A DNA stretch of 64,000 nucleotides from Novosphingobium kunmingense (GTDB taxonomy: Bacteria; Pseudomonadota; Alphaproteobacteria; Sphingomonadales; Sphingomonadaceae), in assembly GCF_002813245.1 (NCBI RefSeq), contig NZ_PHUF01000002.1, positions 744,001 through 808,000 of the forward strand. The letters are read 5' to 3'. The translations under genes and the position numbers were made by a program. Below the pieces are notes generated by a model that was given only the letters and a program-made list of their open reading frames with translations, ran no database searches and was not told the DNA's origin. Positions 3,841 to 63,709 of the stretch are shown here, piece by piece (within the stretch, counting starts at the first letter, position 1; every line of letters starts with the position of its first letter).

Positions 3841-4625
3841 CCGACAAGCTTGCCGAGATCTGCGCGACCAAGCGCCAGGAGGTCGCGGTGCGCAAATCGG
3901 CGACCTCGCTCGACGCGCTCGACGTGCTGGCCCGCCGCCAGACGCCGCCCCGCGGTTTTGAAGCGGCGCTTCGCCAGAAGGCCGAACAAGGCTTTGCCCT
4001 GATCGCCGAAATCAAGAAGGCATCGCCTTCGAAGGGCCTCATACGCCCCGACTTCGATCCGCCCAGCCATGCCCGCGCTTACGAGGCCGGCGGAGCCGCC
4101 TGCCTCTCGGTCTTGACCGATGCGCCCTATTTCCAAGGGCACGAGGACTACCTGGTTGCCGCCCGCGCGGCGTGCAGCCTGCCCGTGCTGCGCAAGGACT
4201 TCATGGTCGACCCGTGGCAGGTCGCCGAAGCCCGCGCGATCGGGGCTGACGCTATCCTGATCATCGTCGCCGCACTCGACGACGCGCAGATGGCCGAGAT
4301 CGAGGCCGCGGCGCACGATCAGGCCATGGATGTCCTTGTCGAAGTGCACGACGAAAGCGAAATGGATCGAGCTGCGCGACTGAAATCACGCCTGATCGGA
4401 GTAAACAACCGCGATCTCAAACGTTTCGTCACCGATCTTGCCACCACGGAGCGGCTTTTGCCGCTGGCGCCTGCCGGCACCTTGCTGGTCGCCGAAAGCG
4501 GCATCAACAGCCACGCCGATCTGCTGCGGCTGGAGGCCAGGGGCGTGCGGACCTTCCTGGTCGGCGAAAGCCTGATGCGGCAGGCCAACGTCACTGCGGC
4601 GACCCAGGCGCTGCTGCATGGCTGA
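3837..4625 (+). CDS. trpC: Indole-3-glycerol phosphate synthase
   Basis: Closes the ring of CdRP to indole-3-glycerol phosphate. The protein is a 262-residue TIM barrel with [15 protein letters not shown] (catalytic Lys and phosphate contact), [12 protein letters not shown] (catalytic Lys) and VAESGIN near the end. I chose the ATG at 3837, which forms an ATGA overlap with the trpD stop, over an in-frame TTG two codons earlier. It is not fused to TrpF. The end overlaps moaC by 8 bases. Confidence 0.94.
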
Positions 4626-5091
4626 ACTCACCCACCTCGACGCCGAGGGCAAGGCGCGGATGGTCGATATCGGCGGCAAGCCCGAGACCCGGCGCGTCGC
4701 GATCGCCGAAGGGCGAATCGCCATGTCGGATGCCGCTCTTGCTGCGATCCGTGACTGCACGGTCCTCAAGGGCGATGTGCTGGCTGCGGCGCGGATTGCG
4801 GGCATCATGGCGGCCAAGAAGACGGCCGAATTGATCCCCTTGTGCCACCCCCTCGCGCTGGACAGTGTCACGATCGATTTCGACTTTGACGACAGGGGCT
4901 TGCGCGCCGTTTCCGCGGCAACCTTGACCGGCCGGACCGGCGTCGAAATGGAAGCCCTGACCGCCGTCTCGGTCGCGCTCCTGACGATCTACGACATGGT
5001 CAAGGCAATCGACAAAGGCATGATCATCGGCGGCATCCGCCTGATCCAAAAGCGCGGCGGCAAGTCGGGGACTTGGCGCGCCGTCGACTGA
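4618..5091 (+). CDS. moaC: Cyclic pyranopterin monophosphate synthase
   Basis: Acts after MoaA in molybdopterin synthesis, making cyclic pyranopterin monophosphate. The 157-residue protein shows [26 protein letters not shown] and the C-terminal [11 protein letters not shown], all signatures of the family. It overlaps trpC by 8 bases and so is translated from the trp message. In many alphaproteobacteria moeA follows moaC and precedes lexA; here lexA comes next, 126 bases downstream, and moeA is absent from this place. Confidence 0.95.
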
Positions 5092-5142
5092 TTGCGCAAG
5101 AACGGCGGAATTGCTTGACGCGACCTCTTTTGTTGCTTAGTT

Positions 5143-5157
5143 GTTCTGCATTCGTTC
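5143..5157 (+). promoter_or_regulatory. LexA (SOS) box upstream of lexA
   Basis: The sequence is exactly GTTC-N7-GTTC, the direct-repeat operator known for LexA in alphaproteobacteria. It sits 61 bases upstream of the lexA start. A TTGACG at 5115-5120 with 17 bases of spacing to TAGTTG (5138-5143) could be the promoter, which would place the box on the -10 region, the expected geometry for autorepression. Confidence 0.8.
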
Positions 5158-5217
5158 ACTGAACGATGCGCAAACATCGCCCGGATGTTCCGCTCGTTCC
5201 ATCGGAGTGCCCGGCGC

Positions 5218-5910
5218 ATGCTGACCCGCAAGCAGCACGAACTGATCCGCTTTATCCAGGCCCGCCTCGAAGAGACCGGTGTGTCCCCTTCGTTCGAGGA
5301 AATGAAGGAAGCGCTGGACCTCAAGTCGAAGTCGGGCGTGCACCGGCTGATTTCCGCGCTGGAGGAACGCGGCTTCATTCGGCGCCTGCCCAACCGGGCA
5401 CGCGCGCTCGAAGTGCTGCGGCAGCCGGATGATGTCGGTGCCAAGCCTGCCGTGCCGAGAGCGGCCAACGCCAACCCGGCTGCCGTGGCAGTTCGCCCGC
5501 CTGAGGCGCGACCCGCGCCCGCCAACGACGTGATCGAGATTCCGCTCCACGGCCGCATCGCCGCCGGCGTTCCGATCGAAGCACTGGAAACCGCCGCGAC
5601 CCTGCCGGTGCCGGCTGCACTGCTGGGTGCGGGCGAACACTACGCGCTGGAAGTTTCCGGTGATTCGATGATCGAAGCCGGCATTCTCGACGGCGACTTT
5701 GCGCTGATCCGCCGCACAGATACCGCGCGCGACGGCGAAATCGTGGTGGCTCTGGTCCGGGGCGAGGAAGCGACACTCAAATACCTGCGCCGCGAGGCCG
5801 GGCGCGTCCGTCTCGATCCGGCCAACGCCGCTTACGAACCGCAGATCTACGATCCGCGCGAAGTGGTGGTGCAAGGCAAACTGGCGGGATTGCTGCGCCG
5901 CTACCACTAA
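5218..5910 (+). CDS. lexA: SOS response repressor LexA
   Basis: Represses DNA-damage genes and is inactivated by RecA-stimulated self-cleavage. From the ATG at 5218 the protein has 230 residues and starts [14 protein letters not shown], the standard LexA N-terminus; an in-frame ATG at 5185 would add 11 unlikely residues. The winged HTH covers residues 1-65. A Pro/Ala-rich linker (70-105) leads to the cleavage site Ala116-Gly117, and the S24 peptidase pair is Ser150 (SGDSM) and Lys188 (EATLKYL). The linker is longer than in E. coli, as in other sphingomonads. The gene has its own promoter with a LexA box and converges on comEC. Confidence 0.95.
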
Positions 5911-5925
5911 TTCAAGGTATGGGGT

Positions 5926-8178
5926 TCAATCGCGGGGCGTCGGGCCGGTGGGTCGCGGCGCCCTGCTTGCGTCTGGAGCCAAGGGGCGGACGCTGAAGAC
6001 CCGCGCCTGCGGGTTCCACCAACCGTGTTGCCCCTGTCCCTGCGCCACCGTGCGAATGTTTGCATCATCGAGGTCTATCGCCAACCCGCCGCTCCGGTCG
6101 AGCAGGCGCCTGTCGGCCTTGATCCAGCGCGGCCGGCATGACCGGGGCAGGTAGCGGGCGGCGATCACCACATCGACGCGGTCGCAGACCGCGGCCAGCG
6201 CGCGCTCGTCGACGTAATCCTTGCCGCGCGCAATCAGCAGGTCCCAGGCGCGGCCGGAGCGATCGAGCCGCAAAGCGCAGAAGTCGGCATTGCATTCGCC
6301 GCCCGGCCAATCGGCGATAAGCCGCACTTCGCCGTTCATCCCGGCCAGTTCGCTCAGGTTGTCGCGGGCAAAGTCGCTGCGGCTATCGCGCAGGACCAGC
6401 AAGTCTCTCCCCTCGCCCGTAATCCCGACGTGGCGCCCGTCGCCCGAGACAAGAACGTCCGGCGCCTCTGTTGCCGACAGCAGGACCGCACCGAGAATAG
6501 CGGGGGCAAGGCCGAGCAATCGGACGCGATCGCGCCACAGGGCCAGCCACAGACCGCCAAGGACAAACAGCGCAAGGGCGCCGCCGCCCATAGCTGGCAG
6601 CAGCGTCACCGCGCCAGGGAACGAGGCGGTCCAGTGCGCCAGGGCAAGCAGAAGTTCGAGCGACTTGCCCGCCAGCCACCACAGCGGCGCGCCGAGCCCA
6701 AGCGTGTCGAACAGCAGCGCGAGCGCAATCAAGGGCATGGACACGAAGGTGGTGAGCGGGATCGCCACGACATTGGCGAGCGCCCCGTAGACCCCGGCAC
6801 GGTGGAAATGGAACAGGCCGATCGGCATCAGCGCCAGTTCGATCACGATGCCGGTCAGCAGCAACGAGCCGACCTGGCGACCGAGCTTTGCGTACCAAGG
6901 CTCCTCCCGCGCCTGAAACAGCGCCTTGATGCGCGGCGCGGAATGCAGGGCGACAATGGCGGTAACGGCGGCAAAGCTCATCTGGAAGCTGGGGCCGACC
7001 AGGGCTTCGGGCCAGATCAGCAGGATCGCGCCCGCGCCCACGGCCACCATCCGCATCGACAAGGCTTCGCGGCCTAGAGCGAGCGCGACAAGCACCAGGA
7101 GCGCGCCAATGCACGACCGGATCGTCGGCACTTCGGCTCCGGTCAGCAGGGTGTACCCGATCCCCGTCACCGCGCCGCTGGCCGCCGCGACAAGGGGCAG
7201 GCGCACCCTTAAGGCGAGCCACGGGATCAGTCCGAGCAGACGTAGGGCGAGAACATAGGCGGCCGCGATGACGGCGCTGACGTGCAGACCACTGATGGAC
7301 AGCAGGTGGGTCAGTCCGGCGTCGCGCATCGCCTCTTCGTCGGCAGCCGCGATCGCGCCGCGATCCCCGCTGGCGAACGCCGCCGCAATCGTCCCCGGCG
7401 AACCGCCCAGGTTGGCGCGAACGTGCTGCGACAGCGCCTGCTGGATGCGCGCGAGATCATGGTCCGACCCGCCCCGCGACAACACGGTGACGTCGCCCAA
7501 CACGCTGCCCGTCGCGGCGAGACCCGAAAACCACGCCGAACGGGCGAAATCGTACCCGCCCGGCAACATTGGCGGAGCCGGCGGGACGAGCCTCGCGCGC
7601 AACTTAAGCGTGGTGCCACGCACCAGGTCCATGCGGTCTCGGGCAAGGTCGAGATTGAGCCGCACCTTGATCGGCCGGGCGGTCCCGGGCTCGCGCGTCG
7701 CCAGGGTCAGCCGCACCCGGTGCTGGGCGGGCTGTTCGTCCCGGTCGAGCACGGTCCCATCGATGACCGCGACCATCGGCCGCGCAATGGGCGGTGTGCC
7801 CACCAGCGACGACTTGCCCCAGACCAGAAGTGTGCCTGCCGCAGCCACAGAAGTCATGACCACAAGCGATTGCCGGATATAGGGAAAGTTGCCGCTTGGA
7901 CCGATCAGCGCCAGCCCGAGCAGGCCACACGAGAGGCACAGGCTGGCCCAGGCTAGCCAGTGCCACGATGTCGGCAGCAGGAACCACGCCGCGATTCCCG
8001 CGCCGAGCGCGACGATTGTCCACGGAGCCCGATCGAAACCGGCCCGCGAAAGGAACGATTCGCCATGCGCGAGTGCGCTGGACAAGTCGATCCGGTTGCG
8101 CCAAGGGCCGTGTTGCAGTGCAGCGCCGTCGGGCTCTGCATCGCCCATCGGCACAGTTGGCGGAACTCGGCTGGCCAT
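5926..8178 (-). CDS. comEC: ComEC/Rec2 family DNA uptake channel protein
   Basis: Predicted polytopic inner-membrane protein that would carry transforming single-stranded DNA into the cytoplasm. The N-terminal part has several membrane segments and a DUF4131-like soluble region. The central competence domain has the hallmark [17 protein letters not shown] followed by many hydrophobic helices. The C-terminal segment resembles the metallo-beta-lactamase-like part but its metal motif is not evident, so it looks degenerate. I chose the ATG at 8178 (750 residues); an in-frame TTG at 8214 would overlap the divergent gltX start. No other competence gene is in the window, so natural transformation is not shown. 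Confidence 0.88.
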
Positions 8179-12614: not shown

Positions 12615-13591
12615 TAGCCGGCGTAGTGACCGGCACCGGCAAGCAGCGCCGCCGCACGATCGGCACCAAGTTGGTCGAAGTCATCCGGCAACGTGACGTC
12701 GGGGAACAGCGCCATGAACTGTTCTTCCACCACATGCGGCTTTAGCCCCGCGGCGCGCAGCGAAAGGTACAAGCGGGCATACTGGCCCTCGCTGGTTGTC
12801 ATGACCACATGGTCGCGGTCCTGCCCCGTCGCCATGGCGAGAGCCGAGAGAAACAGACCTGCGCCGGCATGGCTGACCGACAGTGCGGCCGTCAGGCCTG
12901 CGCCCATCCCTGTCAGCAGACGCGACATCAGGCCAAGCCGGCTGCGTCCTTCGTCGAACCTGGCGCGAATCGCGCTTTCGGCACGGGCGCAGGCGTCGGA
13001 TCGCTGTGGATCTTCTGCACCGTAGGCTCGGAGCGCGACGAGGACGGCGAACAAGAGGTCGCCGGGCAGTTCCGCAAGCGGCAACTGCATGCGCCGCTGC
13101 GTCTGGGCAAAACGCGCCTGGGCGGCGAGCAAGGCCATGGCCTGCGACGCTGTCGTGGTCTCGCTCGACGCGATCAGCGCCTGCAGCAACGGTGAGAGCA
13201 CCGGATCTAGTGCCAGGCGCCCTTGCAGGGTCTGGGTCAGATGCCACTCCAGCGCGAGCGCATGACAGTGCTTCAGCAGGCCTTCGTGGCCGGCGAAACG
13301 GGCGACGAGCGCGCCTATCGCGACTGGATCATGGCTGCGAAGCATATCGTCTTCGGTCGAGGCAGCCATATCCTCGACCACCTGACGGGCAAGGTCCGCC
13401 ATCATTCCACGAACGCGGGCGATGATCTCGTCGCTGAAGACCGAATGTTCGTCGCTGGCCAGCAGGTGGCGCAAGATGGGTGCGTAGGTTCCAAGCTGTG
13501 CATCTCCCACGGCCAGTTCGTCACGCAGAAGGTCTTCGGCGCTGGGTGGAGGCACGGCAGGGACATCGCTGGCGATCATTCCCTTCCCCAT
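12611..13591 (-). CDS. Alpha-helical protein, unknown function
   Basis: A 326-residue, mostly helical, Ala/Leu-rich protein with no signal peptide; one moderately hydrophobic stretch near residues 228-256 could be a buried helix. It may be a distant relative of the alphaproteobacterial DUF2336 proteins, but I see no decisive motif. It starts at an ATG (13591) 13 bases downstream of the preceding gene's stop and is coupled by TTGA overlap to the kinase-like gene, so the two products probably work together. A TTAA-N7-TTAG motif lies just before its start. Confidence 0.75.
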   Translation of the reverse strand: MGKGMIASDVPAVPPPSAEDLLRDELAVGDAQLGTYAPILRHLLASDEHSVFSDEIIARVRGMMADLARQVVEDMAASTEDDMLRSHDPVAIGALVARFAGHEGLLKHCHALALEWHLTQTLQGRLALDPVLSPLLQALIASSETTTASQAMALLAAQARFAQTQRRMQLPLAELPGDLLFAVLVALRAYGAEDPQRSDACARAESAIRARFDEGRSRLGLMSRLLTGMGAGLTAALSVSHAGAGLFLSALAMATGQDRDHVVMTTSEGQYARLYLSLRAAGLKPHVVEEQFMALFPDVTLPDDFDQLGADRAAALLAGAGHYAGY

Positions 13592-13603
13592 ATAGCGATA
13601 GGG

Positions 13604-14797
13604 TTAAGGCCGCGTTAGCCGCTTTGTGAGACGCGGAACAAGGATTCCTGCCAGCGCCGCCGCCACCGCGCCGGCGTGGACGGCGATGGTTCCAACCCCC
13701 GCGCCAAGCGCCGCCGCAAGGCCGAGCGCGAGAGCTGCGCGGTCACCCAGCCAGGCAGTCCACCGCGCCTGGGAAAGCCCGGGAATGATCCTCATCAGCG
13801 CGACAAGCATGAAGGCCGGGAAGAAGCGATAGGGCAGATCCTGCAAGGGAAGCGTTGTCGACCCCCAGCCGACAAGGCCAATAATGATCGCATCGACCAT
13901 CCAGCCATAGCTGCCGACCTGCGCCAACACTTGGTGCCGACCCTGCAACAGGCCCGTCTCAACCCGCGCCAGAAGGGCCGCAATCTCGCGGCACAGCCAG
14001 CCGACCGCGCAGAATATCAGGCCAGTGGCAAAGAAGCCGAGCCAGCCAGCAGCCACTGCGATTGCCGCCATCATCGCCGCCCCGATCGCAAGGTGCGTGG
14101 CGCCGCTGCCGGCATGGAGCAGGCTGGGGCCAAGGCCGCGAACGAATGCCAGAGCCAGGAACCGCGAAGGATAGAGCGGTCGATCGTCGCTGGTCCGTTG
14201 CCGAATCCATTGCGGTTCAAGGCTCTGCGCCTCGGCATCGCTACGCACTAGCGACCAGAACTGCTGACCACCGTCGACACCGGGCAGCGACCGCTGCCGA
14301 ACTCCGCTCTGCAGGGCCAGGCGCTGCAGCGACGATGCTGCATCGCAGTCCGGCGGCAATTCGCCGAGCCCATCGACCAGCCGACCCGGCACACGCATGG
14401 CCGAAGCACTGGCAGTCGTCAGGTCGATGCGCTCGAAACCCGCTGCGAGTCCCTGCTCTATCGGTTGGACCAGCACGGCCTGCCCTTGTCCGAGGAGATC
14501 GGTGGCAAGGCCCGCCGAGGCGAACAGTCCGTCGCCCAGCACGAGCAGCTCGTCAGACGATGTGACCAGACCGAGCAGCGCCCGCGCCCCGGCGACGACA
14601 TGGAATTGCGCTCCACGCGCTTCGGCAAGGTGCTGGAGCTCGATGATCTCCGGCCTCATGCCGGGAGCGATGCAGACGATCCGCTCGCACCCGAGGTCGA
14701 GCGCAAGCGCGACCTGCTGACGTGCCACCGTTGTTCCGCCCACGCGCAGAAAGGCGCGCGGCACGCCGGCGTCGGCCAGTTCCAGGAAGGTCAGCAA
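13604..14797 (-). CDS. Membrane protein with decayed nucleotidyltransferase and CDP-alcohol transferase-like halves
   Basis: A 397-residue protein. Residues 1-190 resemble a sugar-nucleotidyltransferase fold (FLRVGGTTVARQQVALALD, ERIVCIAPG, DELLVLGDGLFA), the order seen in inositol-phosphate cytidylyltransferases. Residues 215-395 hold about six membrane helices. At 270-278 the sequence reads REIAALLAR, in the place where CDP-alcohol phosphotransferases have D-x2-D-G-x2-A-R, so the metal-binding Asp residues are gone, leaving a later VDA near 301. The start is uncertain: TTG 14797 is the first usual start, but the frame is open back to a CTG overlapping the stop of the upstream Hpt-like gene. 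Confidence 0.7.
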   Translation of the reverse strand: MLTFLELADAGVPRAFLRVGGTTVARQQVALALDLGCERIVCIAPGMRPEIIELQHLAEARGAQFHVVAGARALLGLVTSSDELLVLGDGLFASAGLATDLLGQGQAVLVQPIEQGLAAGFERIDLTTASASAMRVPGRLVDGLGELPPDCDAASSLQRLALQSGVRQRSLPGVDGGQQFWSLVRSDAEAQSLEPQWIRQRTSDDRPLYPSRFLALAFVRGLGPSLLHAGSGATHLAIGAAMMAAIAVAAGWLGFFATGLIFCAVGWLCREIAALLARVETGLLQGRHQVLAQVGSYGWMVDAIIIGLVGWGSTTLPLQDLPYRFFPAFMLVALMRIIPGLSQARWTAWLGDRAALALGLAAALGAGVGTIAVHAGAVAAALAGILVPRLTKRLTRP

Positions 14798-14898
14798 GGC
14801 TACTCGCAGCGTTCGTCTCCGCGCTGGAACGAGCGCGGGTTCTAGGGGAGCGGTCCTGCCCTGCCAAGCCTGACGCGAAGCGGCGTGCCCGGCAACGC

Positions 14899-15201
14899 TC
14901 AGGCCTGGGCGAAGTCGTCGAGGTAGGCCTGGATACGGCGCACGACGGTCGGCTCACCGGGCGCCGCCTCAAGCGCCTCCTCGGCCATGCCGATCAACGG
15001 TTCGGCGTGAAAACTGGCCGCCAAGCCTTTGAGTCGCAACGCCGCGATCTGCCAGTTGCCGTCGCAGCGCGACCGGCGAAGAAGGTCGACCTGATTCGAA
15101 AGGCTATCGATAAATGCCTGTCGTAACTCGGAAAAAAGCGCAGGATCCTCGCCCGCCGCAGCGGCAAGGGTCGCATCCAGGGCTCCTGCTTCGTATGCCA
15201 T
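14899..15201 (-). CDS. Hpt-like domain protein lacking the phospho-accepting His
   Basis: A 100-residue helical protein from the ATG at 15201. The Hpt core motif H-x-L-K-G appears as LRLKG: the histidine is replaced by Leu55 (codon 15037-15039, read directly from the sequence). The rest of the helix, LAASFHAEPLIGMAEEALE, fits an Hpt four-helix bundle. It could act as a docking or regulatory module but not as a normal phosphotransfer protein. It is the first gene of the minus-strand group and is divergent from the coiled-coil gene, with 71 bases between them. Confidence 0.75.
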   Translation of the reverse strand: MAYEAGALDATLAAAAGEDPALFSELRQAFIDSLSNQVDLLRRSRCDGNWQIAALRLKGLAASFHAEPLIGMAEEALEAAPGEPTVVRRIQAYLDDFAQA

Positions 15202-15272
15202 GGTATACACGGCTAATCGCAAACTCTTAAAGTGGGGTTTAAAGCGCAGCGCTTCATGGTAAACCTTCGGAC

Positions 15273-17897
15273 ATGACCGGGGGATCGCGCATCGTCGCCA
15301 TCGATGCCGGCGCGCCTGATGCCGCGCCGGCCCAAACGCAGCCTGACGAACGGGACGAAGACGTCCTTGTCGTCGACCAGGTGTGGGAGCCCGACGAAGA
15401 GGCACCGAGCCTTTCCGGTCGCAGCCGTCTGGCGGTTGCCGTCGCCGCAATCGCCGGAACTGCCGTGCTTGCCTGGACAGCGCTGTTCGTGTCCGTCAAC
15501 AAAGGCGGGATGCTCACCGGCGGCAGCCCCGCCGAATGGCTCGCCTGGATCCGCGACTGGTCGGTGCCGGTATTGCTCGTCGGGGTTGCCTGGCTGATCG
15601 CGATGCGCAGCAGCCGCCGCGAGGCCTACCGCTTCGGGCAGGCTGCCCGGCTGCTGGGCGACGAATCTGCCCGGCTCGAGCAGCGGTTGTCGATCGTGAA
15701 CAGCGAACTCAGCCTCGCCCGCGAATTCCTTGCCTCGCAGGCCCGCGACCTCGATTCCCTCGGTCGCCAGGCGACTGACCGTCTGTCGCAGCATTCGGAC
15801 CGCCTGTCCGGCCTTATCCAGGACAACGGTGCCCGGCTCGACACGATCGGGACTGTCAGCGCAGCCGCGCTCGACAACATGGAGCGGCTGCGCGGTCAGT
15901 TGCCGGTCATCGCCAGCGCCGCCAAGGACGTCACCAACAACATCGCCACGGCAGGCCGCACCGCGAAAGGCCAGCTTGAAGAAATGGTCCAGGGGTTCAA
16001 CCGGCTGAACCAGTTCGGCCAGGCTAGCGAACGCCAGGTCGCCGCCCTGCGCGACATGGTCGATTCCACCATTGCCGAGTTCACCCGCCGCGCCGAACAA
16101 CTCGACGCGATCGCGACCGAACGCTTTGCCGCTTTGTCGAGCCGCAGCGAGGAGTTTCGCACCCAGATCGATTCGGACGAGGTCGAAGCTCTCGCCGCGA
16201 TCCGCACGCGCGCCAAGGCCTTGGTCGACGAACTGACCGAGGCGCGCAGCGCGCTTGACGGTCACGAAGAAGCCAGCCTTGCATCGCTGCGTTCGCGCCT
16301 GTCCGCGGTGCGCGACGAAAGCGCGGCGATTACCCGCTCGGTGCGCGACGGTGAAAACGCCGCCATCGAAGTGTGGCACGTCGCCACCACGAGGCTCGAG
16401 GAAGACCTGCGCCTCGCGATCGCTAAGGTCGCCGAAATCGATGACAAGGCAATGGAAGCGGCACGGGCCCGTATCGTGGCCATCTCGACCGAGGCTGAGC
16501 AACTCGACGCACGCATGGCAGAACGCGACCGTCTGTTCGTCGAGGAAGTCGACAAGCGCGGCGCCGATTTCGAACGCCGTCACGGCGAGTTCGCCCAGAG
16601 TCTGGCAAGTCGGCTCGAATTGCTCGACGCCGACATCGCCGCCCGCCAGCGGGCGCAGGACGCCCATGCCCAGCGCTTGTTCGGCCAGTCGCAAGATATT
16701 GCCGAGCAACTTGACCAGTTCGCCGCGCGGATGGACGCCATCGCCGCGCACGGGACCGCGGCCGAAGCAGCTCTGGCTTCGGCCCTTGCCAGCCTGGCAG
16801 AAAAGCTGGTTTCGAGCCGCGATGCGCTCGAAGGCACCGACAGCGCCGTCGCGGCGCTGACCGATGGCAGCGTGCGCTTGCTCGAACTGATCCGCGCCAG
16901 CGTCGATCACAGCACCAAGGACTTGCCACAGGCGATCGCCGTGGGCGAAGCGCGTCTGACCGAACTTGAACAGCGCGCGGTCGCGCTGCGCGGCACGGTC
17001 GCCGAGGCGGAAAGCCACGGCGAGGCGCTGTCCGACTATGTCCTGAAGACCAGTGACACGCTGTCGGGCACCATGGACGCGGTCCAAGCCTTCCACGGCG
17101 ACATGGCCCGGACCAATGCCGAGCATGCCAGCACGCTCCAGGGCTTGCGGCAGTCGCTCGAAGCGGTGCGCGCCGAAAGCATGGCGGTCGCCGCGCTGGC
17201 CCAGGACCAGCTTGAGCAGGCCATCGAACAGCTCAACAGCTCGGCCCGCGCCGCTGTGTCGGGCATCGAAGACATGAGTGCCAAAGCGGTTGCCGACCTT
17301 GCCTCGCGTCTGGGCGAGGAAAGCGGTGCGGCTATCGATGCCGTGATGCGCAGCCGCGCGGCGGACGTCGCCGGCCAGCTCGAGGAAGCAACGGCCAAGG
17401 CCGCGGACGTCAGCCGCGCCGCGGCGATCCAGCTGCGCGACCAGCTTGCCAAGGTCAATGACCTGGCCGGAAATCTCGAGCGGCGCGTCGCCCATGCCCG
17501 CGAACGGGCGCAGGAACAGGTCGACAACGATTTTGCGCGGCGCGTCGCGCTGATCAATGAATCGCTCAACTCGAACGCGATCGACATCGCCCGCGCCATG
17601 GACACCGACGTGTCCGACACCGCCTGGGCCGCCTATCTCAAGGGCGATCGCGGTATCTTCACCCGCCGCGCGGTGCGCTTGATCGACGCGCCGGACGCCA
17701 AGGCCATCGCGCAGCTCTACGATGGCGACCGCGCCTTCCGCGACAACGTCAGCCGCTACATCCACGATTTCGAGGCGATGCTGCGGCAGTTGCTTTCGAC
17801 CCGCGACGGTCATGCTCTGGGCGTGACCCTGCTGTCTTCGGACATGGGCAAGCTCTACGTGGCGCTAGCCCAGTCGATCGAGCGGCTGCGCGCCTAG
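15273..17897 (+). CDS. Large membrane-anchored coiled-coil protein (TipN-like layout)
   Basis: An 874-residue protein. The acidic N-terminus (1-50) is followed by two membrane helices (about 52-75 and 96-111), then roughly 650 residues of heptad-rich, Ala/Glu/Arg coiled coil, and a conserved-looking C-terminal domain (about 785-874; AWAAYLKGDRGIFTRRAVRL and LLSSDMGKLYVALAQSI). Two N-terminal membrane helices plus a long coiled coil match the polarity factor TipN of Caulobacter in architecture and size; homology is not proven. It starts at an ATG and shares a short divergent promoter region with the Hpt-like gene. Its last 4 bases overlap the convergent DUF1467 gene. Confidence 0.85.
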   Translation: MTGGSRIVAIDAGAPDAAPAQTQPDERDEDVLVVDQVWEPDEEAPSLSGRSRLAVAVAAIAGTAVLAWTALFVSVNKGGMLTGGSPAEWLAWIRDWSVPVLLVGVAWLIAMRSSRREAYRFGQAARLLGDESARLEQRLSIVNSELSLAREFLASQARDLDSLGRQATDRLSQHSDRLSGLIQDNGARLDTIGTVSAAALDNMERLRGQLPVIASAAKDVTNNIATAGRTAKGQLEEMVQGFNRLNQFGQASERQVAALRDMVDSTIAEFTRRAEQLDAIATERFAALSSRSEEFRTQIDSDEVEALAAIRTRAKALVDELTEARSALDGHEEASLASLRSRLSAVRDESAAITRSVRDGENAAIEVWHVATTRLEEDLRLAIAKVAEIDDKAMEAARARIVAISTEAEQLDARMAERDRLFVEEVDKRGADFERRHGEFAQSLASRLELLDADIAARQRAQDAHAQRLFGQSQDIAEQLDQFAARMDAIAAHGTAAEAALASALASLAEKLVSSRDALEGTDSAVAALTDGSVRLLELIRASVDHSTKDLPQAIAVGEARLTELEQRAVALRGTVAEAESHGEALSDYVLKTSDTLSGTMDAVQAFHGDMARTNAEHASTLQGLRQSLEAVRAESMAVAALAQDQLEQAIEQLNSSARAAVSGIEDMSAKAVADLASRLGEESGAAIDAVMRSRAADVAGQLEEATAKAADVSRAAAIQLRDQLAKVNDLAGNLERRVAHARERAQEQVDNDFARRVALINESLNSNAIDIARAMDTDVSDTAWAAYLKGDRGIFTRRAVRLIDAPDAKAIAQLYDGDRAFRDNVSRYIHDFEAMLRQLLSTRDGHALGVTLLSSDMGKLYVALAQSIERLRA

Positions 17898-56486: not shown

Positions 56487-56948
56487 GTGAGCGACGACCG
56501 CGGTTTTCGGAGCGAGCCGGATCCCGACAATCCGGGATGGCACACCTGGCAGCTCAATGATCCGACGCGCTTCAACAGCTGGATGTTTCCCAGGCTGCTG
56601 GTCCGCGCCGATCCGGACGGCAAAGCGCGGCTGCGGATGTTTCCGGAACACCGCCACACCAACCTGGCCGACAACATCCACGGCGGCACTGTCCTTTCGC
56701 TGATCGATATCGGCCTGTTCGCCTGTTCGCGAATGTTGGGCATTATCGAGGCCGGGACCGCGGTGACGCTGGATCTATCGGTCCAGTTCATCGGCGCTGG
56801 CAAACCCGGCGAACCCTGTGACGCGGTGACCGAGCTCCTCAAGGAGACGCGGCGGCTGGTCTTCCTGCGCGGTGTGGTCGAACAGGGCGAAGGCCAACTC
56901 GTCGCTGCTTTTTCCGGAACAATCCGCAAGCCAACCAGCCCGCGATGA
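56487..56948 (+). CDS. PaaI-family hotdog thioesterase
   Basis: 153 residues with a single hotdog fold; HTNLADNIHGGTVLSLIDIG carries the family's catalytic region (the HGG motif and the Asp of the helix). Probably hydrolyses an acyl-CoA, substrate unknown. It starts at a GTG directly after the sdhB stop and overlaps zapE by 4 bases (ATGA). Confidence 0.86.
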   Translation: MSDDRGFRSEPDPDNPGWHTWQLNDPTRFNSWMFPRLLVRADPDGKARLRMFPEHRHTNLADNIHGGTVLSLIDIGLFACSRMLGIIEAGTAVTLDLSVQFIGAGKPGEPCDAVTELLKETRRLVFLRGVVEQGEGQLVAAFSGTIRKPTSPR

Positions 56949-58054
56949 AGGTCCTTGCCGCGTACGAGGCGCTGGTGGCAGCCGGTGAACTGCGCCCCGA
57001 TCCCGAACAGCGCGCCGCCGCCGAACGCCTGACGCACCTTCAGGCCGAGCTGGAACGCCCTGCCCCGTCCGGCATCGTCTCACGCCTGCTGGGCCGCAAG
57101 GCGACGGTGCCGCGCGGACTGTACCTGTGGGGCGGGGTCGGACGCGGCAAATCCATGCTGATGGACCTGTTCCACCACAACCTTGCCATCGCTGAGAAGC
57201 GCCGCACCCATTTTCACGCCTTCATGCTGGGCATCCACCAGGCCATGCGCATCTGGCGCGCGAAGGATCCCGGCGATCCCATCCCCAAGGTCGCCGCCGA
57301 GATCGCCGCAAACGTGCGCTGCCTCGCGTTCGACGAAATGGTCGTCAACAATTCGGCCGACGCCATGATCATGAGCCGGCTGTTCACCGCGCTGATCCGC
57401 GATGAAGGCGTTGTTGTGGTCACCACTTCGAACCGCGCGCCGGGGGAACTCTACAAGGACGGTCTCAACCGCGAGCATTTCCTGCCGTTCATCGCGCTGA
57501 TCCAGCGCGACCTCGACGTGCTCCCGCTCAACGGACCGGTCGATTACCGCCTCGAGCGTCTGGCGGGAATCGACACCTGGCACACGCCGCTGGGCGATGC
57601 CGCAACCGCGCAGGTGCGCGAGGCCTTTTTCCGACTGACCGATTACCCGCCCGAAGACAGCGCGCACGTGCCCTCCGCCGATCTCGACCTTGGCGGTGGC
57701 CGCTTCCTGCATGTGCCCAAAAGCCTCAAGGGCGTGGCGGTGTTCAGCTTCAGGAAGCTTTGCGGCGAAGCGCGGGGCGCGGCCGATTACCTGGCCGTCG
57801 CACAGACCTACCATACCGTGATCCTGGTCGGCATTCCGCGAATGGGACCGGAAAACCGCAACGAGGCGGCCCGCTTCGTCACCCTGATCGACGCGCTTTA
57901 CGAGAACAAGGTCAAGCTCTTCGCGACGGCCGCCGCCGAACCGGAAGACCTCTACGAAAAAGGCGATGGCCGCTTCGAGTTCGACCGCACCATCAGCCGC
58001 CTCAACGAGATGCAGAGCGAGGAGTACCTCGCCGCCGGTCACGGCGAGACCTGA
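56945..58054 (+). CDS. zapE: Cell division ATPase ZapE (AFG1 family)
   Basis: 369 residues, a AAA-like P-loop ATPase. Walker A is GGVGRGKSM (63-71) and Walker B is CLAFDEMVV; HREHFLPF-type sequence (NREHFLPFIALIQ) is a family mark. In E. coli it acts at the division ring under stress; in mitochondria AFG1 helps respiratory-protein turnover. Neighbouring sdhB fits the latter link. It converges with the TonB receptor gene, 6 bases away. Confidence 0.92.
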   Translation: MKVLAAYEALVAAGELRPDPEQRAAAERLTHLQAELERPAPSGIVSRLLGRKATVPRGLYLWGGVGRGKSMLMDLFHHNLAIAEKRRTHFHAFMLGIHQAMRIWRAKDPGDPIPKVAAEIAANVRCLAFDEMVVNNSADAMIMSRLFTALIRDEGVVVVTTSNRAPGELYKDGLNREHFLPFIALIQRDLDVLPLNGPVDYRLERLAGIDTWHTPLGDAATAQVREAFFRLTDYPPEDSAHVPSADLDLGGGRFLHVPKSLKGVAVFSFRKLCGEARGAADYLAVAQTYHTVILVGIPRMGPENRNEAARFVTLIDALYENKVKLFATAAAEPEDLYEKGDGRFEFDRTISRLNEMQSEEYLAAGHGET

Positions 58055-58060
58055 TCGCCC

Positions 58061-60211
58061 CTACAGGTCGAGCCGTGCCGTCAGGCGAATGTCGCGTCCT
58101 GCCAGAGGCGCATAGTCCTTGGCGAAGGAAGCGTGGCGGCGCGCGTCGACGTCGAACAGGTTGTTGGCGCTCAGCACCAGGCTGAGCGGCCGATCACGGC
58201 CCCACGGCCGCCACCCGATCTCTGCGTTGACCATCGTATAGCCCGGCGTCACCGTTTCGAAGGCGGCAGTGCGGCTCTGCGCGGTGACTCGCTCGATTTC
58301 GCCACGCAGGTTGAGGTGCGAGGACGACAGTTCCAGTCCACCCTTTACCCGCAGCGGCGGGATCCGCGGCGCCGGCCCTTCCCCCGCGATGGTCGCGTGG
58401 ACATAGTCCGCCAGAGCATCCGCTTCGACCGTCCACGGACCGAACCTGGCGAGCGTCACCGTGCCTTCGGCTTCGAAGCCATAGAGCCGGGCATCGGCCT
58501 GGCCGATCTGAAAGACCGGCAGACCGTCCTCGATCGTGCCCGTCGCACGCTCGAAGATGAAGTTGCCGAACCAACTGTGGTAGGCGCTCAATTCAAAGCT
58601 GTAGCCAGCCCCCTTGCCGCGCAGGATGCCTTCGAGGCTCCAGGCGCGCTCCTTGCGCAGATCGGGATCCCCTATCTCGAATGCCGAGGTGCCAGCATGA
58701 GGCCCGTTGGCGAACAGTTCCTCCGCCGCAGGGGCGCGTTCGGTCCGCGACAGGTTGACGCCGAGACGCCATTCCGGTGCCAATTCGTAGGATGCGCCCA
58801 ACGCGCCCGATAAGGCATCGAAGGTGCGCTTGCCGGACAGGAACTGTGGCTGGTCGCTGCGCGGTGTGGCGGTCAGGACCGAATGCTCCCAGCGCCCCCC
58901 GGTCTCCAACCGCAATGGCCCGGTGTCGATGCTCTGCATCGTGAACAGGCCGAATTGCCCGGTGTCGTTGCGCGGCAGGAACGCCTCATCGCCCTCTACG
59001 TCGAAAGCTCGGCGGACGAACTGCAGGCCGCTGATCCCGCTCCACCCCCCCGACTTGGCCTGACGCAGTTCGAGCCGGCCCTCCATGCCCTTGTTGTAAA
59101 AAGTCGTGCCGATCGCCCCGTCAGGCTCCAGTTCGGCATGGGTGTAATCGGCATATCCGAAGCGAAAGGCGATCTGTTCGAACGGGCCCGCATAGGGACG
59201 CACCTCGGCGCGAGCATCGATCCGGTCCTGCTTCTGCTGCAGGCGCGGCGACTCCTCACCTTGGCCGGACAGGGTGGCGAGACGCACCGGAACGCCATAG
59301 AGGCTATCAAAATGGCTGTAGGCCAGTCCCAGCGAGCCGCCGTCATTGATGTAGGCGAACCCTGCCGCTGCGCTCCAGGTGCGCGCGGCAGTGTTGGGCA
59401 GCACGCCGCGCAGGTTGGCATTGCGGACGAAATCGATGTCAGATCCATCCTCGGGGGGCAACAGGCTCGATTGCAGCGCCTGCGCGCGCAACGCGGGCGT
59501 GAGGGCATAACCGCCGATGCGCATGTCGTCAGCCTTCAGGTAACTGCCATCGACGTGCGCCACGAAGCCGCCGCCAAGGCGCAGGTTCGCTGCAAGCGAG
59601 GCGTTGCGTTCCTTGGCCGCGGTGGCGTAGCCCGCAAGCGCCGAGAGATGCAGGGGCTCGTCCGGAATGGCGTTCGGGATGCGGCTGTCGACGACGTTGA
59701 CCACGCCGCCGATCGCCGATGAGCCGTAGACCAGCGATTGCGGGCCGCGCAGCACCTCGATCCGTTCGGCGAGCAGCGGATTGACCACCGGCGCGTGATC
59801 GGCGGAGGTGTTGGATACGTCGATCGATCCGATGCCGTTGGTCAGAACGCGTACGCGCTCACCCTGCAGTCCGCGCAACACCGGACGCGAGGCGGTCGGT
59901 CCGAAGGAGGTCGAACTGACTCCCGGGACATCCGCCAGCGTATCGCCGATCGACGGACGAAGCGAGGCGGTCAGATCCTGCGCACTTAGGACCGCAACGC
60001 CGGACAGGCTGTCGATCCGCGCGGTGCGCAGCGGCGCGGTGACGACGATCTCTTCGGGGCGGGAGTGATAGCTATCGTTCGGAGAGTTGTGATCGACCTG
60101 TCCGGATCCGCCCTCAGGCGGCGTTTGCACTTCCTGCGCAATAACCGGGCCTGCGAAGCAAAGCGCAGAGGCAGAAATGACGAGGGGCAGAAGTCGCTTG
60201 GGGGAAATCAT
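58061..60211 (-). CDS. TonB-dependent receptor, ZnuD-like
   Basis: 716 residues. Signal peptide 1-25 (ending GPVIAQ), a TonB box EEIVVTAP at about 53, the plug domain (LRGLQGERVRVLTNGIGSID, then ERIEVLRGPQSLVYGSSAIGG) and a 22-strand barrel ending RLTARLDL. The plug segment with SADHAPVVNPLLAERIEV is very like zinc receptor ZnuD, so zinc uptake is the best guess. The last residue is Leu instead of the common Phe. The 148 bases upstream include a weak AT-rich dyad that could be a Zur site. Confidence 0.88.
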   Translation of the reverse strand: MISPKRLLPLVISASALCFAGPVIAQEVQTPPEGGSGQVDHNSPNDSYHSRPEEIVVTAPLRTARIDSLSGVAVLSAQDLTASLRPSIGDTLADVPGVSSTSFGPTASRPVLRGLQGERVRVLTNGIGSIDVSNTSADHAPVVNPLLAERIEVLRGPQSLVYGSSAIGGVVNVVDSRIPNAIPDEPLHLSALAGYATAAKERNASLAANLRLGGGFVAHVDGSYLKADDMRIGGYALTPALRAQALQSSLLPPEDGSDIDFVRNANLRGVLPNTAARTWSAAAGFAYINDGGSLGLAYSHFDSLYGVPVRLATLSGQGEESPRLQQKQDRIDARAEVRPYAGPFEQIAFRFGYADYTHAELEPDGAIGTTFYNKGMEGRLELRQAKSGGWSGISGLQFVRRAFDVEGDEAFLPRNDTGQFGLFTMQSIDTGPLRLETGGRWEHSVLTATPRSDQPQFLSGKRTFDALSGALGASYELAPEWRLGVNLSRTERAPAAEELFANGPHAGTSAFEIGDPDLRKERAWSLEGILRGKGAGYSFELSAYHSWFGNFIFERATGTIEDGLPVFQIGQADARLYGFEAEGTVTLARFGPWTVEADALADYVHATIAGEGPAPRIPPLRVKGGLELSSSHLNLRGEIERVTAQSRTAAFETVTPGYTMVNAEIGWRPWGRDRPLSLVLSANNLFDVDARRHASFAKDYAPLAGRDIRLTARLDL

Positions 60212-60359: not shown

Positions 60360-61331
60360 TCACGCGGCGGCGGAGACCTGCGGCCTGATCCTGACCTGTG
60401 CGGCTGCAAGCCGCTGCATCAGCTTGAGGTCCTGCTCGCGCAGCTTGATGGCCGAATCGGCCCAGTAGTCGACGATGTCGCGCAGTTCGTGAAGCGTAAC
60501 GTTTTCGGACCGCTTGCTGGCCCGCCGGGCTCCGACTAGCCCCGCGTGGCGCCTCTCGGCCTTGGCCATGAAGGCGCGGACTGCCGCCTCCCCCTGCCCC
60601 GGCTCGGCCAGCACATGGACGATGCCACGCTCGTAAAGTTCCTCGGCGGTGAAGGTCTGATCGTCCATGATGACGCGATCCGCCAGCGCCGAGCCAAGTT
60701 TCCTTGTCAGGAAGGCGTGGGCCCCCATGCCGGGGAACAAGCCGAACTTGACCTCGGGAAGGCCGAACGTGGCGCCGCGTTCGGCGACGATATAGTCGAA
60801 CGAGAGCAGCGCCTCGAACCCGCCGCCGAGCGCCTGGCCCTGGACAAGGCCGATGGTCAGGATCGGAAGGTCGAGCGAGTGGAGGTTGCGGCTGAGAATT
60901 TCGACGCAGCGATAACCGTAAGCGGCAAGACCGTCGCGGTTGCCTTCGCGGATGAGCGTGGCGAACAGCTCGAGATCCCCGCCAAAGCAGAACACGCCGG
61001 GCGCGCGGCTGCCCAGGACCAGATAGCGCAGCGGCGCGCGGCCTGGGCCGAAGTGGCTGCCGATCAGATCCTGCCAGGTGACGAAATCGCCAAGCATCTG
61101 CGGGGTGAAACTGGGCCGGCCGACCGGCCGCATGTAGGTCCACAGCGCCTGTGCGTCGTCATCGTAGAGCACGTCGAGCTGGTCGAGCCGGAACAGGGCG
61201 TCGGGCACCTGCAGCCGGGCCTGCGACTGAACGAGCAAATCTTCCGCCGTCTGACTGAACGCGATTGCCGGGGCCGATGAAGTTTCGGCCATTTCTTCGC
61301 GTCCATCAAGACCGCCCGCAAGTCGATCCAT
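60360..61331 (-). CDS. RpfF-like crotonase, predicted DSF (cis-2 fatty acid signal) synthase
   Basis: 323 residues of the enoyl-CoA hydratase/crotonase superfamily. FCFGGDLELFATLIREGNR, GLVQGQALGGGFEALLS, GLPEVKFGLFPGMGAHAF and the C-terminal YWADSAIKLREQDLKLMQRL match the Xanthomonas RpfF pattern segment by segment. The two RpfF catalytic glutamates correspond to Glu173 and Glu193, with the same 20-residue spacing. Such enzymes make cis-2-unsaturated fatty acids used as cell-cell signals. The ATG at 61331 has AGAGGGG upstream. No rpfC or rpfG lies in the window. A perfect inverted repeat is in the promoter region. Confidence 0.85.
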   Translation of the reverse strand: MDRLAGGLDGREEMAETSSAPAIAFSQTAEDLLVQSQARLQVPDALFRLDQLDVLYDDDAQALWTYMRPVGRPSFTPQMLGDFVTWQDLIGSHFGPGRAPLRYLVLGSRAPGVFCFGGDLELFATLIREGNRDGLAAYGYRCVEILSRNLHSLDLPILTIGLVQGQALGGGFEALLSFDYIVAERGATFGLPEVKFGLFPGMGAHAFLTRKLGSALADRVIMDDQTFTAEELYERGIVHVLAEPGQGEAAVRAFMAKAERRHAGLVGARRASKRSENVTLHELRDIVDYWADSAIKLREQDLKLMQRLAAAQVRIRPQVSAAA

Positions 61332-61363: not shown

Positions 61364-61383
61364 GGGTGATGCCCCCATCACCC
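61364..61383. promoter_or_regulatory. Perfect inverted repeat upstream of the rpfF-like gene
   Basis: GGGTGATG-CCCC-CATCACCC, 8-base arms with a 4-base centre, 33-52 bases upstream of the rpfF-like ATG in a 135-base gap. The position fits an operator at the promoter or a hairpin in the leader. Confidence 0.45.
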
Positions 61384-61466
61384 CGTCGTTTTCGAAGGTA
61401 TGCGCGTTATGAGTCTCTTGGCAAAGGAAAAGTCATACTGACAGATTCTACCAGTTTCATTTCGGA

Positions 61467-62579
61467 TCACTCGCTGCGCCATTTAAGCAACAGGTTAGCC
61501 AGCCCGAAGGCCATCACTGCGACGGCCAGCATCGGCAGCATTTGCCGCACGACGAGGTCCGCCGGCATGGCCTTCAGGAACAGGCCGTGACAGATGATCA
61601 GCATATGGCTGAGCGGATCGATCAGGGCGACGGGCTGCAGCCAAGAGGCCATGGAATCGACCGGGCTGGCATAGCCCGAAAGCAGCATCATCGGCACGAT
61701 GACCAGAAAACCGCCCAGAAATGCCTGCTGCTGGTTCTGCGCCAGACTCGAGACGCACAGGCCGATCGCCGTGACGGAGAGGCTGAAGCAAGCGACAGCA
61801 AGCAGCATCATTCCCAGCGATCCGTTGAACGGCACGTCCGACACGAGCGGGATCATGAGGACATAGAGCGCGCCGTTGAACAGACCCACGGACAGCGCCG
61901 GCGCGCATTTGCCGGCAAGGATTTCCCACGAACGGATCGGCATGGCCATGAGCTGATCCCAGGTGCCCGCCTCGCGCTCCCGGGCGATCGCCTGAACCGA
62001 AACCGACAGCACGATGACCGTCGTGATGAGCGTGATCATGCCCGGCAGGGTGAACCAGCGATACTCGAGGTTGGGGTTGAACCAGTGCCGCGCGGCGATC
62101 TGCGGCGTGGCAACGGCAGCCTCGGGGCGCAGTTGCGTTCCGGTCTGCAGTGCGACCTCGCCAAGATAGCCCGCTACGATCTGCGCCGCGTTGACCCGTC
62201 GCCCATCGAGCAGCAGCCCTACCTGTCCCGGCTCGCCGCGCGCAATCCGCGCCGACAGATCGGCCGGAATGATCAGGCCGGCAATGACCTCACGCCGCTC
62301 GATCGCGACGGCGAGCGCCCGTTCGTTGGGATAGGCGGTGACTGCGCGCACATTGCGCACGGCGGCCGTCGCAGAGAGAAGCCGTTCCGAGGCAATCCCG
62401 GCGTCGCGGTTGACCACGCCGATATCGATGTTGCGCACTTCGAGCGTCGTCGCAAAGCCGAACAGGATGAGCTGGATGATCGGCGAGGCTACCAGCGTCG
62501 TCAGGACGCGCCGGTCGAGCAGGACGACGCGCAGTTCCTTCAGCGCCATCGCCGCGATGCGGGTCAGCGCCCCGGTCAT
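61467..62579 (-). CDS. ABC-2 type transporter permease
   Basis: 370 residues from the ATG at 62579: one N-terminal membrane helix, a large extracytoplasmic loop (about 45-175) and five C-terminal helices, the YbhR/YhhJ layout. AIAREREAGTWDQLMAMPIRSWEILAGK is the coupling region. It is translationally coupled to the second permease (ATGA overlap). Likely a drug or lipid exporter. Confidence 0.88.
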   Translation of the reverse strand: MTGALTRIAAMALKELRVVLLDRRVLTTLVASPIIQLILFGFATTLEVRNIDIGVVNRDAGIASERLLSATAAVRNVRAVTAYPNERALAVAIERREVIAGLIIPADLSARIARGEPGQVGLLLDGRRVNAAQIVAGYLGEVALQTGTQLRPEAAVATPQIAARHWFNPNLEYRWFTLPGMITLITTVIVLSVSVQAIAREREAGTWDQLMAMPIRSWEILAGKCAPALSVGLFNGALYVLMIPLVSDVPFNGSLGMMLLAVACFSLSVTAIGLCVSSLAQNQQQAFLGGFLVIVPMMLLSGYASPVDSMASWLQPVALIDPLSHMLIICHGLFLKAMPADLVVRQMLPMLAVAVMAFGLANLLLKWRSE

Positions 62580-63709
62580 GCGATGGTCCGCTTGATCGCG
62601 CGCGTGACGCGCAGGAAGAAGAAGGCTCCGAAACCGAGCAGGACTACGATGTTCGGCAGGAACAGCGACCAGACGTCGCCGACCAGGAAGACGCTTTGCA
62701 GCGGCGGAATGAGGTAACGCGCCGGAACGATATAGGTCAGCCACTGGATCGCCCGCGGCATCGAATCGATTTCGAACAGGAAGCCCGACAACAGCAACGA
62801 GGGCAGGAATCCCGACAGCAGCGCGAACTGAGTCGATACGAACTGGTTCTTCGTCCCCGCCGAGATCAGCAGACCCTGTCCGAGGACTGCGGCGAGGAAA
62901 GCCGAGGCGATCAGGAACAACGCCAGAAGCGATCCGCGGAACGGCAAGCCGTAGCCCAGTACCGCGACGGCCACGCAGATTCCAGTCGAGGCGAGACCCA
63001 GCACGTAATACGGCAGCAGCTTCGACAGGACGAGCGAGGGAATGGCGATCGGCGTCGACAGCAGCCCTTCCATCGTGCCGCGCTCGTACTCGCGGGCCAT
63101 GATCAGTGCCGTCAGAAGACTGCCGATCATGGCCATGACGATGCCGATTGCGCCCGGCACCAGCATGAACCGGCTCTGCAGACCGGGGTTGTAGGTGTAG
63201 CGGGCGACCACTTCGAGTACCGCTGGCGCGGCGACACCCCCTTCCCCAGCCCGTGCTGCGACCCAGGCGCGGACCGCGTCGCGCAAGTGTCCGGTCAGGA
63301 AGGTGGCCGTGTTGACCTGTGCCCCGTCCGTGATCAATTGCAGGTCCTGCGTCTGTTCGCGCAGCAGAGATTCGCCGAAGCCTTCAGGGATGACCGCGAC
63401 CCCGCGCAGGGTGCCATCGACCAGGCCTCGCTCAAGTGCGCCAAGCGACGGGCCTTCGACAACAGCGAAGCTCTCGTTGTTCCGCAGAATACCGACCAAC
63501 TCGCGAGACGCCTGGCTGTGGTCGCGGTCGACCACGCCGAGCCGCGAATGCCGTACGTCGAGGCTGACCGCGTTGCCGAACAGGATCATCAGGATCAGCG
63601 GCATCAGCACGACGAGCCCGAAGGTCGAGGGATCGAGCCAGACCTGCGCCCATTCCTTGGCACGGATCGCGGCGGCGCGGCGGCGGGCGAACGGATCGCG
63701 CGCGATCAC
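62576..63709 (-). CDS. ABC-2 type transporter permease
   Basis: 377 residues, same layout as its neighbour (helix, long external domain, five helices): REYERGTMEGLLSTPIAI is the equivalent coupling region. The GTG start overlaps the ATPase stop as GTGA. The ATPase plus two permeases resemble the YbhF-YbhS-YbhR export system; a membrane-fusion partner would be expected upstream, outside the window. Confidence 0.88.
   Translation of the reverse strand: MIARDPFARRRAAAIRAKEWAQVWLDPSTFGLVVLMPLILMILFGNAVSLDVRHSRLGVVDRDHSQASRELVGILRNNESFAVVEGPSLGALERGLVDGTLRGVAVIPEGFGESLLREQTQDLQLITDGAQVNTATFLTGHLRDAVRAWVAARAGEGGVAAPAVLEVVARYTYNPGLQSRFMLVPGAIGIVMAMIGSLLTALIMAREYERGTMEGLLSTPIAIPSLVLSKLLPYYVLGLASTGICVAVAVLGYGLPFRGSLLALFLIASAFLAAVLGQGLLISAGTKNQFVSTQFALLSGFLPSLLLSGFLFEIDSMPRAIQWLTYIVPARYLIPPLQSVFLVGDVWSLFLPNIVVLLGFGAFFFLRVTRAIKRTIA

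Follow-up and report, generated by a model that had tools for sequence, protein, structure and literature searches.

Introduction

Signals of the diffusible signal factor (DSF) family are described from gamma- and betaproteobacteria, with a few receptor types, in the reviews cited here (PMC4504480, PMC8846402, PMC13220807). RpfF enzymes act as both dehydratase and thioesterase on 3-hydroxyacyl-acyl carrier protein (3-hydroxyacyl-ACP) (PMC4504480, PMC6361424), and in Burkholderia the product of the convergent neighbour of rpfF, RpfR, binds the signal and changes cyclic di-GMP (c-di-GMP) (PMC8846402, PMC13220807). The present work concerns a 64 kb stretch of the genome of Novosphingobium kunmingense (contig NZ_PHUF01000002.1, positions 744,001 to 808,000; hereafter the window) that carries an rpfF-like gene, together with a distant gene for a membrane GGDEF-EAL protein that is our candidate for the receptor:

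60360-61331, minus strand: rpfF-like gene encoding 323 residues, with predicted catalytic glutamates E173 and E193; assigned by profile, structure, tree and alignment evidence
C1:1309-3267: gene (L290) for a membrane GGDEF-EAL protein of 652 residues, the receptor candidate, about 800 kb from rpfF

We consider it fairly probable that the RpfF-clade enzyme makes a cis-2 signal which acts on the unlinked membrane GGDEF-EAL protein and thereby alters c-di-GMP. As in the Burkholderia diffusible signal factor (BDSF) system of Burkholderia and Cronobacter, a crotonase-type synthase would be paired with one GGDEF-EAL protein; rpfF and rpfR are convergent there (PMC4504480, PMC6361424), as are the two genes in all 18 sphingomonad loci in which they are adjacent. 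Unlike RpfR, the sphingomonad partner begins with a membrane domain of six helices, Pfam detects no PAS domain in it, and in the clade of the window the two genes lie far apart. With the RpfF/RpfC/RpfG system of Xanthomonas the window protein has the synthase clade and its residues in common, and in eight sphingomonad loci rpfF has as neighbours genes for an RpfC-like hybrid kinase and for a REC-PAS-GGDEF-EAL protein; in contrast, the window genome holds no match to the sensor or Hpt part of the RpfC-type kinase, and the response regulator of those eight loci has GGDEF-EAL in place of the HD-GYP domain carried by RpfG. A third described system, the exosortase A (XrtA)/PEP-CTERM cluster, is recognizable next to rpfF from eleven exosortase A-associated families that score over their cut-offs, and differs from its usual form in having rpfF as an accessory addition.

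The synthase

By its sequence, the protein encoded at 60360-61331 belongs to the RpfF clade, apart from ordinary enoyl-CoA hydratases. It scored 341.6 bits with the NCBIfam family NF006452 (PRK08788; cut-off 177), and is thus a member of that family, while the narrow xanthomonad-type RpfF model NF053515 gave 189.2 bits, below its cut-off of 550. The best solved structures were 7zq7, RpfF 3m6m, RpfF 6dgn and 5fus, with E values from 6e-52 to 7e-42, and ordinary hydratases followed from 1e-16. A preliminary description of the gene had reported a full-length match to RpfF in four blocks; the likeness to RpfF holds, whereas the alignment to 7zq7 and 3m6m is a single block, from residue 68 or 70 to 314. 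The same description had both catalytic glutamates kept with the right spacing, and indeed E173 and E193 align with glutamates of 3m6m and are 20 residues apart in both proteins. Together with L168, G169, G170, M202, W290 and L308, they are kept without change in every one of the 59 XrtA-linked rows of the alignment; in RpfF the corresponding positions are the catalytic glutamates and residues of the acyl pocket.

An ordinary enoyl-CoA hydratase of fatty-acid breakdown would be in keeping with the Pfam result, generic ECH_1 and ECH_2 domains only, and with the database names of relatives, often crotonase/enoyl-CoA hydratase family protein. This identity was rejected as highly improbable on three grounds: the remaining families shown in the profile scan reached at most 69.7 bits, against 341.6; W290 and L308, common to RpfF, are missing from the four aligned ordinary hydratases of the same genome; and the protein falls within the RpfF clade in a tree whose RpfF-type rows are split from those four hydratases with a support of 100. 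Of the 108 rows in the tree, 88 were loci of the order, one was the window, 12 were beta- or gammaproteobacterial or similar loci, three were RpfF-type structures and four were the hydratases, a fifth hydratase row having been left out as empty. The tree resulted from a quick search with several long branches, the solved RpfF rows among them, so that its finer branching is unreliable. The profile search and tree against RpfF and generic hydratases that the preliminary description had proposed thus assign the protein to the RpfF clade rather than to the ordinary enoyl-CoA hydratases.

The open frame lies on the minus strand, the plus strand of the same span being interrupted by stops, and its ATG at 61331 is preceded by an AGAGGGG stretch. 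MDR[LI] stands at this start also in seven of 11 aligned relatives, and a simple pattern finds an MDRL-like start in 25 of 58 XrtA-linked loci; the second methionine, residue 14, is a possible alternative. Relative to the 3m6m chain, which may include a tag, the aligned part begins 15 residues further in, and presumably 32 residues further in by RpfF numbering. This N-terminal extension had been regarded as unusual, a view not upheld by the relatives: many of the close ones listed have 320-324 residues, others about 299, and long, variable N-termini recur in other RpfF-like loci. The closest named relatives are mostly Novosphingobium, and several are labelled 'DSF synthase' by JGI; the automatic label thus predates this analysis, but carries no genomic context. 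A structure model of the protein was too poor for use, with a predicted local distance difference test score (pLDDT) of 44. In-frame stops in six rpfF matches of one genus proved to be the terminal stop codons of the match, which rules out pseudogenes.

The RpfF family was found over its cut-off in 85 of 396 Sphingomonadales genomes, always with at least 318 bits, and in 24 of 385 genomes of the class. Its occurrence in the order is patchy, yet not exceptional, contrary to what had been suggested for a DSF synthase in sphingomonads.

The candidate receptor

As had been pointed out, there is no rpfC- or rpfG-like gene among the scanned neighbours of rpfF, a genome-wide search for HD-GYP not having been made. 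A genome search for rpfC, with the kinase of one relative as query, gave 32 matches in the window genome, none of which covers the sensor part (residues 1-190) or the Hpt part; on this comparison RpfC was rejected for the window genome and no RpfC-type sensor was found, with the proviso that such a search could overlook a strongly diverged sensor part. The earlier suggestion of a different receptor has instead acquired a concrete candidate, the unlinked membrane GGDEF-EAL protein, one of eight EAL proteins in the genome.

This 652-residue protein matches the rpfF-adjacent GGDEF-EAL protein in 18 of 18 loci, from near the N-terminus and with 36-53% identity. Its sequence contains GGDEF and EAL motifs, preceded by a six-helix membrane domain; Pfam, run to an E value of 0.1, detected GGDEF and EAL only and no PAS, the FI domain not being covered by the models used, and the order that marks RpfR (FI and PAS before GGDEF-EAL) was not found. 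A structure model of a relative shows long helices at the N-terminus, and a Foldseek search with the six-helix domain returned nothing at an E value of 0.001 or better. Kinship of the domain with the RpfC-type sensor, or with rpfF-adjacent GGDEF-EAL proteins of gammaproteobacterial metagenome-assembled genomes (MAGs), was rejected at a profile-comparison probability of at most 0.5%, with profiles of only 11-12 sequences for the six-helix domain and five for the MAG proteins. ImcA of Pseudomonas aeruginosa (8wcn), a membrane diguanylate cyclase, has 7% identity to the domain, a value in the chance range for helical bundles and uninformative on the ligand. We infer that the six-helix domain would be the part of the protein that senses the RpfF product.

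The two proteins tend to occur in the same genomes. With the N-terminal 200 residues of the 652-residue protein as query, the sensor domain was matched in 90 of the 396 Sphingomonadales genomes: 73 hold it together with RpfF, 17 hold the domain only, 12 RpfF only and 294 neither. The 12 RpfF-only genomes are, without exception, those with a kinase beside RpfF. In the 73 double-positive genomes the two genes are at most 10 kb apart in 18, on one contig at a distance of at least 193 kb (median 232 kb) in 42 and on different contigs in 13. Within the genus (37 genomes), the domain is present in all six genomes with RpfF, and the 31 without it gave two strong matches and one weak one.

Shared descent was taken into account with a tree of a conserved flanking gene, used as a proxy for the species:

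56945-58054, plus strand: zapE, conserved flank of XrtA-linked rpfF loci

The zapE tree comprises 137 genomes, 59 with RpfF and 78 without; all 59 carry the GGDEF-EAL sensor domain, and on this tree RpfF must have changed state 19 times and the sensor 23 times. It includes all 13 sensor-only genomes with a listed zapE position and a full match; of the other four, G176 and G296 lack a listed zapE position; the tree does include G385 and G405, scored as domain-less because their matches were weak and in short frames. The remaining rows without RpfF were hand-picked from the listed genomes, and those with RpfF exclude the genomes of the 30 loci not linked to XrtA (see below). Supported branches yielded six independent pairs, of which 4.5 changed in the same direction, none in the opposite direction and 1.5 showed no difference (median p 0.06). 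When every branch was used, a custom pairing script gave 19 pairs, 15.6 in the same direction, none opposite and 3.4 without difference (p 3e-5 on the rounded mean), and in an exosortase-based tree of 33 genomes the corresponding numbers were two, none and one.

These data also bear on the alternative that the DSF synthase is real and the GGDEF-EAL protein merely co-inherited with it, the signal being sensed by another protein or by neighbours. The domain without RpfF in 17 of 396 genomes would fit such an explanation, as would the seven other EAL proteins and many kinase-type matches in the window genome and the diversity of known DSF sensors (PMC4504480, PMC13220807). It accounts poorly for the adjacency of the two genes in 18 genomes, for the restriction of RpfF without the sensor domain to genomes in which a kinase adjoins it (12 of 12) and for the lack of any tree-based pair in the opposite direction, and we regard it as distinctly unlikely.

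The sensor domain was seen without an over-cut-off RpfF in G063, G086, G113, G127, G136, G165, G170, G176, G185, G204, G263, G286, G319 and G398. Sensor-only genomes may possibly belong to listeners to the signals of other species, or reflect recent loss of the synthase.

Genomic context of the synthase gene

The genes and the element around rpfF are as follows:

58061-60211, minus strand: TonB-dependent receptor, downstream of rpfF; best model ZnuD, below cut-off
61388-61425, minus strand: promoter-like element in the gap before rpfF, consensus tTTGCCAag.gactc.....t.G.tTAg..T
61467-62744, minus strand: ABC-2 permease, upstream of rpfF after a gap of 135 nucleotides; part of an HlyD/ABC ATPase/two-permease exporter
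62576-63709, minus strand: second ABC-2 permease of this exporter, whose partner ATPase and HlyD genes lie past the window edge (genome C1:807706-810459)

rpfF adjoins the 3' end of the XrtA cluster, the core of which begins past the end of the window. Beyond it, the same strand encodes the ABC ATPase, HlyD, an XrtA amidotransferase, exosortase A with an EpsI domain, a glycosyltransferase, FemAB, a deacetylase and an ATPase and, farther on, a TyrKin-like protein (below cut-off), chain-length and export proteins, a decarboxylase and an acyl-CoA ligase; on the opposite strand lie genes for an ACP and for exosortase A system hydrolase 1. The XrtA, amidotransferase, glycosyltransferase, FemAB, deacetylase and ATPase families are over their cut-offs, which identifies an XrtA locus. 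The TonB-dependent receptor is probably no part of the system, since it is found in some relatives only.

For comparison, 88 rpfF loci were fetched, from 84 of the 85 family-positive genomes of the order (the window's own being left out) and from G004, G008, G010 and G022. Fifty-eight are XrtA-linked: the amidotransferase lies upstream of rpfF at more than 55% identity in 52 and some XrtA core gene is present in 55, and in three further loci the core is gone, with the ligase and decarboxylase genes still next to rpfF. The same gene order was seen in a second, separate set of named genomes, wherever the loci are long enough to judge. Since zapE, on the other side, is likewise conserved, gene order by itself argues only weakly for a function. 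The remaining 30 loci, classed by Pfam on examples and otherwise by sequence clustering, have a membrane GGDEF-EAL gene (18 loci) or a histidine kinase (12 loci: the eight with the RpfC-like hybrid kinase and REC-PAS-GGDEF-EAL, and four with a REC-PAS-histidine kinase); their genomes hold XrtA over cut-off elsewhere in 28 cases and gave no match in two. In the RpfF tree the XrtA-linked rows form one group nested among GGDEF-EAL-type rows, and rpfF therefore appears to have moved to the XrtA cluster once in the clade of the window and to have been inherited there since. It is an accessory addition to the cluster: of 61 relatives, close ones and sampled ones, 46 have XrtA over cut-off and eight the RpfF family.

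The promoter-like element precedes rpfF at a steady distance in 55 of 59 XrtA-linked loci, with scores of 10-41, where 295 shuffled sequences reached 8.2 at most; its matrix was trained on the same loci, that of the window included, which are related to one another. The site at 61425-61388 is the sole match above 9 bits in the 64 kb. Two matches of 10.3-10.4 bits elsewhere in the genome (L090, L289) also exceed the shuffled maximum, so weak matches arise by chance, and none above 9 bits precedes the GGDEF-EAL gene. A standard sigma-70 scan found nothing at the element site, and a perfect 8-bp hairpin at 61364-61383 was discarded since it is not seen in the upstream stretches of relatives. From the conservation of the element, rpfF is likely to be transcribed from its own promoter.

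The main alternative to a signalling role starts from this setting: recruited to the XrtA system, the enzyme would work with its ACP, acyl-CoA ligase and hydrolase, making or releasing an acyl group for a surface polymer, and would no longer be a signal synthase. N-acyl amino acid synthases have reportedly been linked to the exosortase system (Craig and co-workers, 2011). Consistent with recruitment are the linkage in 58 of 88 loci and the presence in the adjoining system of genes for these three partners. rpfF also lies near ACP, ligase and decarboxylase genes in G354, G265, G237, G361 and G217, which have no XrtA match genome-wide, and similarly in G066, with a remote, sub-cut-off XrtA match only. 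Moreover, RpfF enzymes use acyl-ACP, and in Xanthomonas the acyl-CoA ligase RpfB counteracts the RpfF thioesterase (PMC4504480). On the other hand, the relocation looks like a single event, rpfF has its own conserved promoter-like element, and the sensor domain accompanies RpfF in all 59 genomes of the zapE tree. Of 147 genomes in the order, 82 have the ligase family over its cut-off, against 85 of 396 for RpfF (different samples); with the larger share of genomes, the ligase module does without RpfF, and the ligase was rejected as an RpfF-specific partner. Weighing these points, recruitment to XrtA acyl chemistry seems to us unlikely, and a signal synthase paired with the GGDEF-EAL protein is preferred.

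Two observations concern the make-up of these loci. In L231, L257, L258, L225, L241 and L244 the XrtA core is wholly or largely lost, and rpfF has kept its place near that system's ACP, ligase and decarboxylase genes. The HlyD/ABC ATPase/two-permease exporter (61467-63709 and C1:807706-810459) separates rpfF from the XrtA amidotransferase gene in the window genome and in nine of the 58 fetched XrtA-linked loci; these occurrences fall into two or more distinct parts of the RpfF tree.

Among the matches listed from the open-licence PMC literature, no title dealt with a sphingomonad DSF synthase or with RpfF and exosortase, and texts holding the paired search terms had them in unrelated passages. 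New here are the relocation of rpfF to the XrtA end, its GGDEF-EAL or kinase alternatives elsewhere and the unlinked, full-length homologue of the GGDEF-EAL protein.

Related loci

In four Sphingomonadales genomes of other families, RpfF is part of a protein of 628-688 residues (L260, L262, L263 at 13285-15351, plus strand, and L264 at 4104-5996, minus strand). A Haem_oxygenas_2 (iron-containing redox enzyme) domain forms the C-terminus in L263 and L264, the two examined with Pfam, and such a fusion could make a modified fatty-acid product. Gammaproteobacterial or similar MAGs (L053, L055, L058, L064, L065, L068 and L075) have rpfF-like genes near ACP, ketoacyl synthase-like and GGDEF-EAL genes, grouped by clusters, with the ACP of L053 identified by Pfam and the ketoacyl synthase named from reading its sequence. 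Two GGDEF-EAL genes surround rpfF in L193, L220, L045, L047-L049 and L051; the extra protein of L193 has a 7TMR-DISM_7TM domain.

Proposed circuit and implications

Since characterized RpfF enzymes carry out dehydration and thioester cleavage on 3-hydroxyacyl-ACP, the RpfF-like protein is predicted to release a cis-2-unsaturated fatty acid from this substrate. The fatty acid would act on the GGDEF-EAL protein encoded at C1:1309-3267, through its six-helix domain, and this protein, predicted to make and to break c-di-GMP, would then change c-di-GMP, an output that may matter for the neighbouring exopolysaccharide system. As judged from the trees, the synthase and receptor genes would once have been neighbours, like rpfF and rpfR of Burkholderia, the synthase gene later moving once into the XrtA cluster and the receptor gene staying elsewhere. 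Since the convergent arrangement of Burkholderia recurs in the 18 loci, there with a membrane sensor, we take the split pair of the window genome to work like RpfF and RpfR; the partner would thus be RpfR-like in function without being a member of RpfR.

A wider proposal is more tentative, and we would put it forward with some doubt: that six-helix GGDEF-EAL proteins are a new class of DSF receptor, with neither the PAS of RpfR nor a detectable likeness to the RpfC-type sensor, converting a fatty-acid signal at the membrane straight into turnover of c-di-GMP; that relocation of the synthase gene to the exosortase A locus, in one sphingomonad clade, lets the signal output and exopolysaccharide and PEP-CTERM surface building be adjusted jointly; and that the ABC exporter is a candidate for DSF export. 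The last point is a guess, made because the export step is given as unknown in the source consulted (PMC4504480).

If the pairing is true, part of the Sphingomonadales would use DSF with a receptor type that lacks a family name, and the receptors for 'orphan' rpfF genes could be found by co-occurrence, even when the genes are far apart. The XrtA/PEP-CTERM exopolysaccharide system would, in turn, gain a possible cell-to-cell signal input.
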